Shown here piece after piece: positions 42,510 to 51,438 of a stretch of 60,178 nucleotides of DNA (position 1 is its first letter; the number at the start of each line of letters is the position of its first letter). Source of the stretch: an uncultured Eubacterium sp. (GTDB lineage Bacteria > Bacillota > Clostridia > Lachnospirales > Lachnospiraceae); the NCBI GenBank assembly GCA_900548465.1, contig URKY01000011.1, positions 1-60,178 on the forward strand, written 5' to 3'. Position numbers and translations under genes: made by a program. A model generated the notes under the pieces. The model did not search any database. It was not told the origin of the DNA and saw only the letters and a program-made list of their open reading frames with translations.

Positions 42510-45350
42510 ATGGCTGACAAAAAGAAATACATCAAAATCAGAGGGGCTAGCGAGCACAATTTAAAGAATATAGACATAGAAATACCAAGGGATGAATTTA
42601 CGGTTATAACGGGACTTAGCGGTTCGGGAAAATCATCATTGGCATTTGACACAATATATGCAGAAGGACAGAGAAGATATATGGAATCTCTGTCTTCTTA
42701 TGCAAGACAGTTTTTGGGACAGATGGAAAAGCCACAGGTGGAGAGCATTGAGGGACTTCCGCCGGCTATATCAATTGACCAGAAATCAACCAACAGAAAC
42801 CCACGTTCAACTGTTGGAACGGTTACAGAAATATATGATTATATGAGATTGCTTTACGCCAGGGCAGGTATACCTCATTGTCCAAAATGCGGAAAGGAAA
42901 TTAAGAAACAGTCCATAGATGAAATTGTTGACAGAGTTATGGAGCTTCCTGAAAGAACGAAATTCCAGATTCTGGCTCCGATTGTAAGAGGGAAAAAAGG
43001 ACGACACGAAAAAGTATTTGAAAGTGCAAAGAAAAGTGGATATGTCAGAGTAATTGTAGATGGCAACATGTATGAGCTGACGGAAGAAATTAAATTAGAC
43101 AAAAATATTAAGCACAACATTGAGATTGTAATAGACAGACTTAGTATCCGTGATGGAATAGAAAAGAGACTTACGGATTCCATTGAAAATGCATTAAAGC
43201 TCGGTGGCGGGCTTATGAATCTTGATGTTATTGGAGGGGAAACCATTACCTTTAGTCAGAATTTTGCCTGCGTGGACTGTGGAATCAGCATAGATGAAAT
43301 CCAGCCAAGAAGCTTTTCCTTTAACAATCCGTTTGGTGCATGTCCTGATTGTTACGGATTGGGATATAAGATGGAATTTGATGTGGATCTGATGATTCCC
43401 GACAAAAGTCTTAGCATAAATGAGGGTGCAATTGTGGTACTTGGATGGCAGAGTGCAAATGATGGAAAGAGTTTTACAAATGCTATTTTAAGGGCATTAT
43501 GCAAGAAATATAATTTTGACCTTGATACACCTTTTGAAAAGTATCCTAAAAAAATTCAGGATATTATTATTAATGGAACAAAAGGCGAAAGCGTACCGGT
43601 TCACTACAGAGGACAGCGTGGTGAAGGAGTTTATGACATTGCCTTTGAGGGATTGATTAGAAATGTAGAAAGAAGATACAGGGAAACCGGAGCCGAGTCA
43701 AGTAAGGCAGAATATGAGACTTACATGAGAATAACACCTTGTAGTACATGTCACGGTCAGCGATTAAAGGCAGAAGCCCTTGCAGTTACAATTGGTGACA
43801 AAAATATAATTGAAATGACTGAAATGTCAGTGAGAGATTTAAGAGAGTTTTTGGAGAAGCTCAAACTTACGGAAAAACAGCTTGCAATAGGAAAAGAGAT
43901 ATTAAAAGAAATAAAGGGAAGACTTCAGTTCCTGATTGATGTAGGACTTGATTATTTGAGTCTTGCAAGAGCCACGGGAACTTTGTCAGGTGGTGAGGCC
44001 CAGCGTATTAGACTTGCCACACAGATTGGTTCAGGTCTGGTAGGTGTTGCTTATATTATGGACGAGCCAAGTATTGGTCTGCACCAGAATGACAACGAAA
44101 AACTTCTAAAGACTCTTAAGCATTTAAGAGACCTTGGAAATACTCTGATAGTTGTTGAACATGATGAGGATACTATGCTTGAGGCTGATTATGTGGTAGA
44201 CATTGGACCTAGAGCCGGAGAGCATGGTGGAGAGGTCGTGGCAGCAGGTACCGCAAAACAGATTATGAAATGTAAGGATTCCATAACAGGTCAGTACCTT
44301 AGCGGAAAACTGAGAGTTCCTGTTCCGGCAAAGCGTCGTAAGCCTACGGGATATATTCAGGTAAAAGGGGCTCAGGAAAACAACTTAAAGAACATTAATG
44401 TTAAAGTGCCACTTGGTGTATTTACATGTGTTACAGGAGTTTCCGGCTCTGGAAAAAGTTCCCTTGTAAATGAGATAATTTACAAGACTCTGGCAAGAAA
44501 TCTTAACAGAGCAAGAACAATTCCGGGAAAATGCAAGAAGATTGAAGGTATTGAACAACTTGATAAAATCATTAACATTGATCAGTCTCCAATAGGAAGA
44601 ACGCCACGTTCAAATCCGGCAACATATACGGGAATGTTTGACATGATTAGAGATTTATTTGCCGCAACAATGGATGCAAAAGAGCGTGGATATAAGAAAG
44701 GACGATTTAGCTTTAACGTAAAGGGCGGACGATGTGAAGCCTGCTCCGGTGACGGTATTTTGAAGGTTGAGATGCATTTCCTTCCGGATGTATATGTACC
44801 TTGTGAAGTTTGTGGTGGAAAGCGCTATAACAGGGAAACATTGGAAGTTAAGTACAAGGGCAAGAGTATTTATGATGTTCTTGAAATGACAGTGGAAGAA
44901 GCTCTTGATTTCTTTAAAAATGTCCCAAGGGTGTACAATAAGGTTAAGACTTTATATGATGTAGGTCTTGGGTATATTAAATTAGGACAGCCAAGTACAC
45001 AGTTATCAGGTGGTGAGGCCCAGCGTATAAAGCTTGCAACGGAGCTTAGCAGACGTAGTACGGGAAAGACAATTTATGTATTAGATGAGCCAACTACAGG
45101 TCTTCATTTTGCAGATGTTCATAAATTAGTTGAAATACTTCAGAGACTGACTGATGAAGGAAACACTGTTCTGGTAATTGAGCATAATCTTGATGTTATA
45201 AAAGCAGCAGATTATATCATTGATATGGGACCTGACGGAGGTGACCGTGGAGGTACAGTTGTAGTTGCAGGAACACCGGAAAAGGTAGCCGAACACCCGA
45301 CAAGTTACACTGCAAAATTCGTAAAACAGAAATTGGACGAGGCAAAATAG
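42510..45350 (+). CDS. uvrA: Excinuclease ABC subunit A
   Basis: 946 residues: two ABC ATPase halves ([10 protein letters not shown] and [11 protein letters not shown]alker [13 protein letters not shown] and [12 protein letters not shown] signatures) with zinc fingers ([13 protein letters not shown] with [14 protein letters not shown] with CEVCGGKRY). It loads UvrB at DNA lesions. GGAAAGGAA precedes the start. Nothing unusual. The 0.8 kb behind it up to guaA is non-coding. Confidence 0.97.
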
Positions 45351-45477
45351 TCATTTTTTATAAAAAAACGATTCATAAAAATGTTTAAATAAAAATAGTT
45401 TTATGCAATACTTCTAAAGATGAAAAAATAGCTAAAAAACCCTTTAAAATAGGGGAAAAACATGCTATATTGAAGAT

Positions 45478-45940
45478 ACAAAATAAATAAGCATTAAATA
45501 CCCAAGAGAACTTCTACAATACATTTAACAACCATTTGTTATTGGATGTCGACCCGATGGCAACAGTATCGAAGTTAAGAGGTGAAACGAGTTTTACCCA
45601 GTGATATCTACTGACATGGCAATCAACGGAAGATTGTTTTAGTAGTAATTATTGGATAAGGTGCTACAGAGAAACGGAAAGGATAGGAAGTATTCAAAAC
45701 GAAGATTCGATGAGTGATAGCATCTTATGGTTAGAGTAGATGAGAAGTTGAGGCAGGACAAAGTATAGGAACAACGCATACACATGATAAATTCCAGATT
45801 GATATGGAGAGTGTAAAAAGTTCAGAGAAGATTCATAAGTGTAAAAAGAACCTGCGGTTGTGGATGAAATTGTAAAGTCAGGGTATTGAGATAGGGAAGC
45901 ATCTGTTATACAAAGAAGTGTAGCAGGTGCTTCTTAAATT
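45478..45940 (+). ncRNA. Candidate large structured RNA
   Basis: The 800-bp gap between uvrA and guaA has no credible ORF but looks like an RNA gene. An extended -10 (TGCTATATT, 45463-45471) with a weak TTTAAA 17 bp upstream could start it near 45478. Inside: CGAT/ATCG hairpin (45555-45571), a nested hairpin CTACT/AGTAG enclosing CAATC/GATTG (45608-45645), GATG/CATC (45709-45724), GTTC/GAAC (45820-45851), and a direct repeat AGTGTAAAAAG at 45810 and 45838. The end is a 16-bp hairpin (45896-45911 with 45918-45933), 13 Watson-Crick pairs plus three G-U pairs and an AAAGAA loop. Not recognised as RNase P, tmRNA, SRP or 6S RNA; size fits classes such as ROOL or OLE, unproven. Confidence 0.5.
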
Positions 45941-46154
45941 GTAAAAAATAATCTGTTAAGGAAATATATTGGATTGGTGGGAAGTAATATAAAGCGAAGG
46001 AGACTTTGTCGGAAGAGATATAGGAAATGTGAGGAATTGAAAACATACATGGATTGTCCAGAACTTCCTTGTACATTTACACAAAATAGAGTAAAATAAC
46101 AGAAGTGCAGGTAATTTGGAATTGTTCCTGCAATATAGATATACGGGAGGAAAC

Positions 46155-47699
46155 ATGGATAGAGAGTTAGTTATCGTAATAGATTTCGGTGGACAGTACA
46201 ACCAGCTTGTTGCAAGACGAGTGCGTGAGTGCAATGTTTACTGTGAAATTTATTCATATAAAACAGATATCGAAAAGATAAAAGAAATGAATCCTAAGGG
46301 AATAATTCTTACCGGCGGACCAAACAGCTGCTATGAAGATGGTGCTCCGACTTATACAAAAGAATTGTTTGAACTTGGAATTCCGGTACTTGGATTGTGC
46401 TATGGTGCTCAGTTAATGCAGCACATTCTTGGCGGAAAAGTTGAGAAGGCACCTGTTCGTGAATACGGAAAAACAGAGGTGCAGATAGACACAACTTCTA
46501 AGTTATTTAAGGATGTTGAGGAAAAAACAGTATGCTGGATGAGCCATTTTGACTATATTTCAAAGCCGGCTCCGGGATTTAAAATAACAGGTTACACAAA
46601 GGACTGCCCTGTAGCAGTTGCCGAATGTGAGGAAAAGAAATTATATGCGATTCAGTTCCATCCTGAAGTACTTCATACAGTACGCGGAAAGGAAATTTTG
46701 AGCAATTATGTATACAACGTGTGTGGATGTGCCGGAGATTGGAAAATGGACTCATTTGTAGAGCATTCAATTAAGGCAATTCGTGAAAAGGTAGGAGACG
46801 GCAAGGTGCTCTGTGCACTTTCAGGTGGCGTAGATTCATCAGTTGCCGCCGTACTTCTTGCAAAAGCTATTGGAAAACAGCTTACATGTGTATTCGTAGA
46901 TCACGGACTTCTCAGAAAAAATGAGGGTGATGAGGTAGAAGCAGTATTTGGACCAAACGGCCCATACGACCTTAACTTCATTCGTGTAAATGCACAGGAA
47001 AGATACTATAAAAAACTTGCGGGAGTTGAAGAACCGGAAGCAAAACGTAAGATAATCGGTGAGGAATTTATCAGAGTATTTGAGGAAGAAGCAAAGAAAA
47101 TAGGAGCGGTAGACTACCTTGTACAGGGAACAATTTACCCTGACGTGGTAGAAAGCGGTCTTGGTGGAGAATCAGCAGTAATCAAGTCTCACCACAATGT
47201 AGGTGGTCTTCCTGACTATGTTGATTTCAAGGAAATCATAGAACCTCTCCGCGACCTTTTCAAGGACGAAGTTCGTAAAGCAGGACTAGAACTTGGCATA
47301 CCTGACTATCTTGTATACCGTCAGCCATTCCCGGGCCCGGGACTTGGAATCAGAATTATCGGCGAGGTAACGGCTGAAAAAGTTAAAATAGTACAGGACG
47401 CAGATGCAATCTACCGCGAGGAAATTGCCAATGCAGGACTGGACAAAGAAATCAACCAGTATTTTGCAGCCCTTACTAACATGCGTTCAGTCGGTGTAAT
47501 GGGTGACGAAAGAACTTACGACTATGCTATCGCACTCAGAGCTGTAAAGACAATAGATTTCATGACAGCAGAGTCTGCGGAAATACCGTATGAAGTGCTG
47601 AACAAAGTAATGAACAGAATAATCAACGAGGTGAAAGGGGTCAATCGTGTAATGTATGATTTGACGAGTAAGCCACCTGGAACGATAGAGTTTGAGTAG
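46155..47699 (+). CDS. guaA: GMP synthase (glutamine-hydrolysing)
   Basis: 514 residues: class I amidotransferase domain with [18 protein letters not shown] (nucleophile Cys) and FHPEV; ATP-pyrophosphatase domain with LSGGVDSS; dimerisation domain ending [11 protein letters not shown]. It converts XMP to GMP. The ATG at 46155 follows GGGAGG by 4-5 bases; the longer frame from 46116 has no site. A hairpin (GCAGG/CCTGC, 46106-46132) lies just upstream. No purine riboswitch consensus was found. The 3' end of guaA is a well-known integration site for islands, and an island does begin right behind it here. Confidence 0.97.
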
Positions 47700-47847: not shown

Positions 47848-49041
47848 GTGGCAGAAATAAAAATGAGTTATATAATTTGGGAAAAAACAAAAGATAATAA
47901 TAGAACATTCGAACAAATTATTTTTTCATGCTTGGAGAATAGTGGTTATAAGCGACAGAATGAGTACATATTTATAGATGATACAAATTCAATAAGATAT
48001 GTTATTAGACATAAGAGGAACTCGCAGAGGTATTATTTAGAAATTATCTCTAATCTTAGAGTAAATAAAGGAGAAGATGCATTATTGCATATGGATGAAT
48101 GTCTGCTAAAATCATCAGAACAACAATATATAAATATTATAAGAGTCTATGATGGTGTATCAGCAAGTTTTTGTGAAAGACTATATCCAAAGTATGGAGC
48201 ATTTGAACGGTTACTAAGGCAGATAATTCTTTTGGTTTTAACAAAAGCATTTGGTAATGACTGGAGAAATAAGACTATTACAGAAGAGCAACTAAACGAT
48301 ATGAAAAGAGTTGCAAAGGCCAAGGGAAATCTGTCATTGAGTGACACGTTAGAACAATTTGATTTAGCTTCAATGGAGAGGTATTTATTTGAAAAACGTC
48401 AAATAAATTATATAGATTTTTTTGATGAAAAGTTAAAAAAGGAGGAAATTTTAAACAAAGAAAAAGAGGAATTAGTAGAACTAATAAATGAAATGAGACC
48501 ATGTAGTTTATGGGAAAGAAATTTTGAAATGTTGGGAAAACAGTATAAATGGGAGAAACAGATTTATGAAATACATGGTTTAAGAAACAAAGTGGCTCAT
48601 TCAAAAAAAATAACTAAGGAAGAGTACAAAACTATTAATAAAAAACTAAATAAATTGAATCATGATTTAAATGATGCTATTATAAAAATACAAGATAAAG
48701 ATTTTGAAAATGTAGATTATGTTGACATACTTTGTAATTTTGCATTAACAATTGGAAAAATGACTCAGAAGATAGTAGCAAATTGTGATTTTTCAAGAAT
48801 TGTAAATGGAATAAACAAAGTAGTTCAAGATATGATTATTCCATTGAGAGAAGCTTATAATTCCAGTATAAATGAATCGCTAGAAAAAATTGCATTAGTA
48901 GGAAAGATAGACAATCATAAGGTACATACACAGACCAGAAAATCAGATGTTACTAAAGTGCTTACCGCGTTTGAAGCAGCTGAAGAATTAAAATCAATAG
49001 CGAAAGATTTTAATAATACCGCAGAAAACGATACAGAATAG
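47848..49041 (+). CDS. HEPN-domain protein, Swt1-like, unknown role
   Basis: 397 residues, mostly alpha-helical and polar, with no membrane segment. GAFERLLRQIILLVLTKAFG (about 112-131) resembles the start of Swt1-type HEPN domains, and IHGLRNKVAH places R246-N247 and H251 in the RN-x3-H arrangement of catalytic HEPN RNases. The C-terminal 110 residues are probably coiled or helical. HEPN proteins often cut RNA in toxin-antitoxin or phage-defence systems. Start GTG 47848 with AAGGTG upstream; ATG 47863 is possible. First gene of the guaA island, alone on its transcript. Defence role is inference. Confidence 0.6.
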   Translation: MAEIKMSYIIWEKTKDNNRTFEQIIFSCLENSGYKRQNEYIFIDDTNSIRYVIRHKRNSQRYYLEIISNLRVNKGEDALLHMDECLLKSSEQQYINIIRVYDGVSASFCERLYPKYGAFERLLRQIILLVLTKAFGNDWRNKTITEEQLNDMKRVAKAKGNLSLSDTLEQFDLASMERYLFEKRQINYIDFFDEKLKKEEILNKEKEELVELINEMRPCSLWERNFEMLGKQYKWEKQIYEIHGLRNKVAHSKKITKEEYKTINKKLNKLNHDLNDAIIKIQDKDFENVDYVDILCNFALTIGKMTQKIVANCDFSRIVNGINKVVQDMIIPLREAYNSSINESLEKIALVGKIDNHKVHTQTRKSDVTKVLTAFEAAEELKSIAKDFNNTAENDTE

Positions 49042-49145
49042 TTATTGGATGTTGTACTATTAGGATAAGGTAATAGGTTTATTGTATATAACTGAGAGTC
49101 TGTGAAATAAAGTGTTCCGAGCCATTATATAAGACTCCTAAATCT

Positions 49146-51438
49146 GTGCAGGAAGCTGTAGAGATTATGAAGATTTCTGAGAATGGAATCTTTCAGGTGG
49201 GGCCTAATAAGTATTCTAAGACTTACAGTTTTAGCGATGTCAATTATGCAACTAGAACAGAAGATGAGCAGGAAGGATTCTTTAGCAGATACTGCAAGGT
49301 ACTTAATTCTTTTGACTGTAGTTTTAGTATTACGGTCAATAATAAGAATAAGTATATGGAAAAACTTAGAGAAGAGATTCTTCTTGATGAAAACAAAAGG
49401 GATGGATTTGGTTCTATGCGTGGCAGTTGTAACAATGTTATAGAACACAACATTGTAGAGGGTAAACAAGGGATTGAGCAGGAGAGATATATCACTATCT
49501 CTACAGAGAGAAACAACTTCGAGGATGCCAAGTCTCGGTTTGCCACTATTGAGTCGAATGTGCTTAAGTCATTTGCCACACTTGGATATTCTCTAGAGCC
49601 TCTTAATGGAAATGAAAGACTGAAAATCCTTCATGACTTTTACAGACTTGTAAGGGAGGAAGAATTTACTTTTGACATCAGAGAAGGTAAGAAGACCGGA
49701 ACTGATTTTATTAATGAAATCTGTAATAGTAGCCTTAAGTTTAATAAGGACTATAACGAGGATGAAGAGTATGTAAGAAAGGTTATTTATATTAAGAAAT
49801 ATCCAACATATCTTTCAGATAGATTTTTTACAGAACTGACTTCGCTTCCGGTGCATTCAATTACAACAATTGATGTGGTGCCAGTACCTAAAGATATCAC
49901 TATGAAAATCTTACAGAAAAAATATCTAGGTATTGAGTCTGAGATTATCAGACAGCAGAGAACACATAACAGAAACAATGATTTTTCGTCTGATATTTCA
50001 TATAACACCAGAGTACAAAAAATGAGTGTGCAGAAGATGATGGATGATGTTAGAGAAAATGATGAGAGTTTATTCTTCGTCGGTGTTACTATGGTTATTA
50101 TGGGCGAAGACAAGGAAGAACTTGATAGCGTGATGGAAACAGTACAGACTATTGCAAGAAGTAGTGGTTGTGCTATTGATACTTGCGATTATAGACAGCG
50201 AGAAGCTCTTAATACAACACTTCCTATTGGTGTTCGTCAGATTGAGACTATGAGAACAATGCTTACACAGAGTTTAGCAGTGCTTATGCCTTTTAATATA
50301 CAGGAAGTTATGCGATAAGAACGGTATTTATTATGGAATTAATCAGGTTTCAAAAAACATCATTGTGGGGAACAGAAAGAAGCTTCTTAACGGTAATGGT
50401 TTTATCTTGGGTGTTTCCGGTGCCGGTAAATCCTTCCAGGCAAATATGGAGATGGGCTCTGTTTTACTGTCTAGCGATGATGATGTAATAGTAGTAGATC
50501 CAATGCATGAATACGAGGATTTAGCTAAGAAGTATAAGGGTACATATGTAAACATCTCAACCAATACTAAGAACTATATCAATCCAATGGATATGGATGC
50601 GTGGAACTTAGATCCGCTGGATTCAAAAGGCTGGGTAAGAGATAAATGTCAGCTGATGCTTAGTATCTGCGAGCAGATCATGGGTGAGATTAGTGCACAG
50701 CAGCGTTCTATTATTTCTCGTTGTGTAAAGGACTTGTACATGGAGATAGCAAGAAGCAAAGAGAAGTATATTCCTACGATGGAAGACCTCTATAACAGAC
50801 TTTTAGAACAGGAAGAACCTGAGGCAAGGGATGTGGCCCTTGGTCTTGAAATCTTTGTTACCGGAGCTCTTAATATCTTCAATCATCAGACCAACGTAGA
50901 TGTAGATGATAGATTTATCGTTTATGGTATCAGAGACCTTGGTGAATTACTTGCTCCACTTGCAATGCTTGTTATGCTGGAAGCGATTCAGCAGAAGATT
51001 GTTGAAAATGGAGAAGATGGCAGATCAACATGGCTCTATGTAGATGAAGTGCATGTGCTTTTACGTTCACCGTTTAGTACTGACTATTTACAGCAAATGT
51101 GGAAGAAGGTTAGAAAGCAGGGAGGACTGTGTACCGGTATTACTCAGAATATCATAGACGTACTTAGAAGTGAGACTGCTACGACAATGCTTTCGAACTC
51201 TGCATTTGTGCTACTTCTTAATCAGTCAAATAAGGATATCGAAAAGATAACAGAAGCCTTGGAGATAAGTCCTGAGCAGCTTAATTACGTGATTGATAGT
51301 CCTTCTGGTACCGGATTGTTGAGGTTCGGTAAGAAGATAGTACCGTTTGATAATACGGTGGAGAAGGGCAGTGAGTTGTATAATCTTTGTAATACGAATA
51401 TGTATGAGAAGATGGAGAAAAATAAGGGAAGAAAATAG
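49146..51438 (+). pseudogene. VirB4/TraE-type conjugation ATPase, frameshifted and N-truncated
   Basis: The first part (to the TAA at 50316-50318) has TPKSVQEAVEI, YSKTYSFSDVNYA and IGVRQIETMRTMLTQSLAVL, the N-terminal VirB4 features of Tn916/Tn1549-type elements. The second, from 50320 onward in the next frame, continues NGIYYGINQVSKNIIVGNRKKL and GVSGAGKSF (Walker A), DVIVVDPMHEYEDL, STWLYVDEVHVLL (Walker B) to the end. A one-base shift joins them exactly. The open frame extends upstream to about 49096 without a start codon, so the N-terminus is also lost. Normal role: energising type IV secretion during conjugation. Confidence 0.85.

Follow-up and report, generated by a model that had tools for sequence, protein, structure and literature searches.

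To our knowledge, few classes of large structured RNA are known from bacteria, and several of these are without known function. OLE RNA is associated with OLE-binding proteins, and 6S RNA and RNase P RNA are stable structured RNAs that act in trans. The portions of PMC11109978 and PMC12286853 that are drawn on here likewise present the large classes as few and several of them as functionally unassigned. In those of PMC12286853, ROOL and GOLLD appear as large ornate RNAs of bacteria and phages that are encoded by phages or prophages, often near tRNA islands; GOLLD is given no known function and ROOL no identified protein partner.

The locus to be compared with these lies in a window (the whole stretch of DNA that was analysed, 60,178 nucleotides) in which 804 bases (45351-46154) separate the end of uvrA (45350) from the start of guaA (46155). 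A sequence-only reading had put forward a large structured non-coding RNA for this gap, and the proposal has stood up: a fold is kept by compensatory changes, the promoter region and the 3' hairpin are conserved, and there is no match in Rfam. Sequence comparison establishes that homologues exist and that fold, promoter and 3' hairpin are conserved among them.

The gap between uvrA and guaA

The gap falls into three parts: an upstream element with a promoter (45362-45471), the candidate RNA (about 45478-45937) and the guaA leader (45941-46154). The gap had been described as free of ORFs, and it is indeed poor in them: just two of at least 80 aa overlap it (the guaA frame extended to an upstream TTG start, 46116, and a minus-strand ORF of 92 aa at 45956-46234), neither of them inside the RNA. 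Taking all of the approximately 800 bp as RNA was too generous. The RNA strand from 45478 to 45940 has a fold z of -6.26 against dinucleotide shuffles (-3.36 without the 3' hairpin), compared with -1.01 for the opposite strand, +0.75 for an equal-length stretch of uvrA and -0.38 for the 214-base guaA leader, which has no unusual structure. Since the first of these stretches folds beyond chance and the guaA leader does not, the RNA is about 460 nt long and fills only about 460 of the 804 bases. Among the six of 12 sequences for which fold z was computed, the window included, three long-form relatives score -7.13, -6.76 and -6.47 and two short-form relatives -4.93 and -6.81 (the forms are defined below).

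Table 1. Features of the gap, by position in the window
Feature	Position	Strand	Pairing partner	Basis or remark
A/T-rich upstream element, conserved (AAAAAAANNNTTCANAAAA ... GCAA ... GAAGAT)	45362-45440	+		homologue alignments; resembles an UP element or regulator site
Promoter, weak -35 (TTTAAA) and extended -10 (TGCTATATT)	45443-45471	+		consensus scan and conservation among homologues
RNA, about 460 nt	45478-45937	+		fold z, homologues and covariation; inferred ends: 5' by the promoter, 3' by the hairpin
P1 5' arm (AUACC), outermost closing helix	45498-45502	+	45882-45886 (GGUAU)	invariant in 6/6 long-form sequences
P2 5' arm	45511-45517	+	45872-45878	79/84 cells pair, arms chosen by eye
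P3 5' arm	45525-45532	+	45857-45864	cells paired: long form 47/48, short form 40/42
P4 hairpin, loop AUGUCRAC	45536-45563	+		loop in 11/12 sequences; L152 has AUGUCAAU
P6 hairpin, UUACAGY/RCUGUAA in most relatives	45618-45638	+		long-form pair count (helix 8), cross-form hairpin comparison
P7 arm with invariant strand UAUUCAAAACGAA	45653-45732	+		long form only; missing from short form
P10 5' arm (GCAGG)	45753-45757	+	45851-45855 (CCUGC)	60/60 cells pair in 12 sequences, arms by eye; helix 12 of long-form count
P8/P9 arm	45778-45816	+		P8 45778-45783 with 45811-45816; P9 45792-45796 with 45805-45809
Terminator-like hairpin, 16 pairs	45896-45933	+		helix 13: two-sided changes at 5/18 pairs
Separate promoter-like site of guaA	46070-46097	+		consensus match at chance level; comparison with RNA-less G426 locus

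The extended -10 that had been pointed out from the sequence is present (TGC-TATATT, 45463-45471, with the weak TTTAAA at 45443-45448). As bare consensus matches such sites occur at chance level (five in 45200-46300 against 4.2 +- 2.0 in shuffles), yet this one is conserved among homologues: the 20 bp from the extended -10 onward are the best conserved of 180 positions compared, with an identity of 0.81-0.82 (ungapped pairwise mean over 10 of the 12 sequences). On the same measure, with positions counted from the T of the extended -10, an A/T-rich block between -100 and -81 stands at 0.69-0.71, and identity falls to 0.28-0.39 farther upstream, at -140 to -111. The upstream element, which is present in a single copy in the window, would be the means by which the RNA is regulated; its conservation suggests, from alignment, regulated expression.

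The hairpin near the 3' end does have the 16 pairs that had been ascribed to it, three of them G-U (counted by eye). It is not the closing helix for which it had been taken; it lies after the closing helices and is terminator-like, with a T-rich tail in the relatives. In the window itself the T-run is poor, and a terminator scan did not call the hairpin.

Farther along the window, directly after guaA (47848-51438, + strand), lie two ORFs without a Pfam match and then a TraG-like P-loop protein, possibly a conjugative element inserted beside guaA.

Relatives of the RNA and conservation of its fold

A sample of 397 genomes from the family of G001, a Lachnospiraceae bacterium, yielded one strong DNA match, G292 (79% identity over 456 query bases), which has the same uvrA-RNA-guaA order as the window. 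Within its genus (23 genomes, probably belonging to Lachnospiraceae), a DNA search added four carriers (five of six tallied genomes were kept and G406 dropped), and a first model, R1, added four weak ones that were confirmed by eye from a common promoter, helices and 3' hairpin (L113 was coding-like, hence nine of the 10 genomes in that tally were kept). Model R2 added two more, and homologues are found in 11 of the 23 genomes, all of them after uvrA. Model R3 regains the same 11 carriers among 40 relatives (E <= 2.4e-17); because it was built from these very sequences, the recovery is a consistency check. The comparison set of 12 sequences (11 of them distinct in the shared core) divides into a long form of about 460-480 nt (the window, G292, G417, G419, G423 and G425) and a short form of about 340-370 nt that is without the P7 arm (G424, G427, G407, G412, G413 and G414).

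Searches outside the genus were less productive. When 80 guaA loci of other genomes were searched with model R2, nothing came up beyond three rows at chance level (E 0.17-0.63), and model R1, run over 33 of these loci and the window, returned the window itself and two chance-level rows. At E <= 0.1, 29 of the 397 family genomes gave 31 rows, of which the real ones are G292 and G419, both of the carrier genus. Inspection covered these two and five further rows, which were rejected; the other 24 rows have E-values of 0.018-0.099. The order sample gave the same two of 392 genomes and L184, which sits inside a 264-aa ORF and was rejected. Also rejected were L081 and L092 (coding sequence, by eye), L116-L119, L121 and L153 (AT-rich stretches or coding) and, from the genus DNA search, L099 and L100 (short matches away from any uvrA site). 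The inspection by eye covered matches other than L082-L090, L093, L094 and L101-L103. L099-L103 are short, partly recurrent DNA matches elsewhere, with a 30-base stretch (query 129-158) in three genomes and the L100 match apparently in a transporter gene; they may be chance matches or shared sequence. In the wide samples the filters were strict and each genome contributed few candidates, which means that distant homologues could be missed, and restriction to one clade is a statement about these samples.

In the proposed fold, helices P1-P3 (45498-45532 pairing with 45857-45886) would bring both ends of the RNA together around a multi-branched core consisting of P4, P5, P6, P7 and the P10-P8-P9 arm. 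For the long form, 94.0% of 603 cells are paired, and two-sided changes are seen at 25 of 101 pairs (20 of 83 if the terminator-like helix is left out); not one of 500 shuffles reaches either the paired fraction or the two-sided count, and slid-pairing controls give 37-46% paired cells and 2-7 two-sided pairs. The five distinct short-form sequences show two-sided changes at 10 of 77 pairs (slid, 0-2), mostly in the 3' hairpin (six of the 10). Two hairpins that can be aligned across both forms have 95.1% of cells paired, as against 30-51% when slid, and two-sided changes at six of 13 pairs, a count that eight of 500 shuffles reach. Of five measures, one ('further pair types') is not above shuffles in any comparison (it is reached by 139 of 500 for the long form, 129 for the short form and 473 for the cross-form hairpins). 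The structures that were counted come from the very alignments on which the count was made, a bias in their favour, and the counts for P2, P3 and P8-P10 use arms chosen by eye. The hairpins, on whose retention in relatives the sequence-only reading had made its proposal depend, are kept in the homologues through compensatory changes, and these changes support the fold as it is read from the alignments.

P1 does not vary among the long-form sequences, and two-sided change is limited to a single pair in P2 and a single pair in P3, which leaves pairing and conservation as the main support for the closing helices. P1 in the short form was judged by eye, and L109, with AUACU, is still capable of pairing. 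P2 leaves two window positions unpaired and is completely paired in nine of 12 sequences, with C-G/U-A exchanges at two pairs; in the long-form count (helix 2) it has one two-sided pair. P3 has no two-sided change with the by-eye arms; in the MAFFT register (helix 3, 10 pairs) it is 80.0% paired with one two-sided pair. The inner six pairs of P4 show two-sided changes at four (11 distinct sequences, 97.0% of cells paired) and P7 (helices 9-11) at 10 of 27. P8 and P9, which lie outside the long-form consensus structure, diverge widely in sequence between the subgroups and keep their pairing (with by-eye arms, 71 of 72 cells for P8 and 60 of 60 for P9 across the 12 sequences). The putative GUAUC-GAUAU pairing of the long form (helix 5) competes with longer-range pairing in single-sequence folds. 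The direct repeat AGTGTAAAAAG noticed earlier does exist, at 45810 and 45838, but is missing from the aligned homologues and is therefore probably incidental. By eye, the P4 loop contains GUCGAC in five of six long-form sequences, GUCAAC in L091 and in five of six short-form sequences, and GUCAAU in L152. A self-kissing P4 loop was considered and rejected, the loop being palindromic in only five of 12 sequences: at this loop, the one examined by eye, a palindrome for homo-oligomeric kissing is not kept family-wide.

The position of the RNA relative to uvrA is steady. The R2 match starts 12 bp past the end of the UvrA match in the window and 21-208 bp past it in 10 of the 11 carriers. In the other, G414, an extra gene (L111, about 420-1250) lies between uvrA and the RNA, making the distance 1,054 bp; in G413, which is closely related, it is 208 bp, and both genomes retain the RNA. 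What follows the RNA varies: guaA; a gene with a 4HBT domain and then guaA; ORFs before an HD-domain gene; or oppositely oriented ORFs. guaA comes directly after the RNA in five of 12 loci (the window, L091, L095, L096 and L097) and after one intervening ORF in three (L111, L112 and L151, with the 4HBT domain in L151, the one tested), and it is not seen in the 1.2-1.3 kb downstream in four (L098, L109, L110 and L152). Downstream of 1795 in L098 (G425) there is an ORF whose first 120 aa have no Pfam match, and an HD-domain ORF that we take to resemble the start of a type III CRISPR Cas10 gene.

Nine of the 12 non-carriers are readable after uvrA and have, by eye, no comparable element or gap there; of the other three, G420 has its uvrA at the edge of a contig, and the threshold used gave no uvrA match for G410 or G415. 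In the topology of a FastTree built on UvrA fragments, the carriers belong to a single clade, within which G426, a genome without the RNA, and G420, which could not be judged, are also nested. G426 has uvrA and then guaA, with about 150 bases between them and no RNA, which implies that the RNA is not essential throughout the clade. The simplest history is probably that the RNA arose once, in the ancestor of the clade, and has since been lost at least once, in the G426 lineage. Over its first 200 residues, the GuaA that follows uvrA is 79% (L091) and 63.5% (L162) identical to that of the window, although the UvrA fragments are 93-95% identical, which suggests replacement of guaA in these two lineages.

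What the RNA may be

The differing downstream genes, the G426 site without the RNA and the lack of a frame common to the two forms speak against both a guaA leader and decayed coding sequence. We consider it likely that this is an independently transcribed RNA gene, in which the conserved upstream element and the extended -10 promoter would drive transcription, as one unit, of a folded RNA of about 460 nt. The 3' hairpin would end the transcript, and the product would act in trans by virtue of its fold, most likely as a protein-binding scaffold or an RNA-protein particle. The natural absence of the RNA from G426 in the same clade, the long and short variants and the conserved upstream element make it a directly testable candidate. 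A bolder version, which we entertain only tentatively, treats it as the first example of a new class of large RNA machine: a closed, multi-branched body encoded by the host, existing as an RNA-protein particle or an RNA-only assembly, with a novel function and a modular P7 arm. The modularity refers to the presence of this whole arm of about 80 nt in one subgroup and its absence from the other.

Another reading is a base-pairing regulatory sRNA, whose loops (AUGUCRAC or UAUUCAAAACGAA, for example) would pair with mRNAs while the body served as a stable carrier: the RNA has its own promoter and 3' hairpin, and fully conserved runs lie in loops and joining strands beside more variable helices. 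Typical base-pairing sRNAs are smaller and less closed, and UAUUCAAAACGAA is missing from the short form, which makes this account unlikely in our view.

Control of guaA by a cis-acting leader or a long riboswitch-like element would be in keeping with the proximity of guaA in eight loci (next in five, one ORF away in three) and with the fact that guaA is classically riboswitch-controlled. Against this, guaA in the window is set apart from the RNA by a terminator-like hairpin and some 215 bases without structure, four of the 12 loci show no guaA in the 1.2-1.3 kb downstream, and none of the 80 guaA loci of other genomes matches R2 (best E 0.17). A promoter-like site also precedes guaA itself, although its consensus match is no better than chance, and a comparable TTG...TAGAATT site is found, by eye, upstream of the divergent guaA that still follows uvrA in the RNA-less G426 locus (L162). 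We regard the leader as quite improbable.

The remaining explanation at the level of RNA, a very divergent member of an existing class (ROOL, GOLLD, OLE or raiA) that lies below detection by Rfam, trades on similar size and ornate style, and large RNAs can diverge past the reach of covariance models. With E-value limits relaxed to 5 for the window region and to 10 for the relatives, Rfam 15 still has no family match, those four classes included, for the window region or for 10 of the 11 relatives (the scan covered all but L112, which is near-identical to L111), in agreement with the earlier failure to place the RNA in a known family. The weak rows that overlap it are at chance level: RT-4, with 17.7 bits of the 73.5 needed (window); drum, 21.5 of 43 (L091); mir-577, 21.3 of 100 (a hairpin of L109); and ncr1175, 26.9 of 60 (L152, opposite strand, over the 3' hairpin). 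A search for raiA RNA (RF03072) found none in the 23 genus genomes, and likewise none in 14 control genomes. ROOL and GOLLD belong to phages and prophages, often near tRNA islands, in the portions of PMC12286853 already referred to; here all 12 loci lie after uvrA (one with a gene between), the window region matches no phage or plasmid record, and two exact patterns are absent from viral contigs. Membership in an existing class is highly improbable, and the caution with which ROOL or OLE had originally been mentioned was justified, nothing supporting membership. Elsewhere in the window, on the + strand, Rfam models do register two RNAs above the gathering score: a GA-cis RNA (RF02987, 6281-6369, 71 bits) and a fluoride riboswitch aptamer (RF01734, 9622-9693, 45.1 bits).

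The longest ORFs inside the 12 RNAs are 43 to 92 aa long. Minus-strand ORFs of 66-92 aa occur in five of six short-form RNAs, the longest starting at the same place in four of the six, and an antisense protein was considered for this form. It was rejected because the DNA of the frame is better kept than its protein, opposite to what coding constraint would produce: L111 and L151 share 215 of 240 bases and 41 of 74 residues, with one-base gaps, L109 and L152 181 of 201 bases and 25 of 57 residues, with frame-breaking gaps, and L110 retains just 43 aa of the frame. A small or antisense protein, a decayed gene (one of the outcomes that would have refuted the original proposal) or a mobile-element remnant, toward which these ORFs and the lack of a comparable gap in the nine readable non-carriers might lean, can be set aside almost entirely, there being no ORF of at least 30 aa common to the long and short forms (BLASTP, E <= 1e-3), compensatory changes that decay would not lead one to expect, no Rfam intron match, and no match in the phage, plasmid and viral searches just mentioned.

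Comparison with described RNAs

Extensive covarying structure outside coding sequence, the mark of large structured non-coding RNAs as a kind, is found here, and the RNA very probably represents a new family of them, restricted to one clade within the samples; its novelty is judged against Rfam 15 and literature searches. A literature search found no paper on it by title or abstract start, and the terms uvrA, guaA and Lachnospir are absent from the main texts of PMC11109978 and PMC8632094.

With 6S RNA (RF00013) and RNase P RNA (RF00010) the RNA would share the character of a stable structured RNA acting in trans, if its proposed trans action is granted. Replacement of either was considered and rejected: 6S RNA is separately present in 10 of the 11 carriers (missing in G412) and RNase P RNA in nine (missing in G423 and G412), so that the RNA does not stand in for either in most carriers; the misses may reflect incomplete assemblies.

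To OLE, ROOL, GOLLD and raiA the resemblance is in style only. OLE RNA, as it appears in the portions of PMC12286853 drawn on, is similarly large, ornate and bacterial, but its Rfam model finds no match here; ROOL and GOLLD, from the same source, are similarly large and ornate, but again there is no Rfam match, and the site beside uvrA is different. Another close likeness by description is to the smtA motif ('Soda Lake RNA'), which the corresponding portions of PMC11109978 present as an RNA of more than 350 nt with a complex, covariation-supported fold, found in one genus and without an assigned function. That motif is described there only in Thioalkalivibrio, upstream of smtA, whereas the RNA reported here lies beside uvrA in another clade, as a compact candidate, backed by sequence comparison, for a new class of large structured RNA in bacteria.
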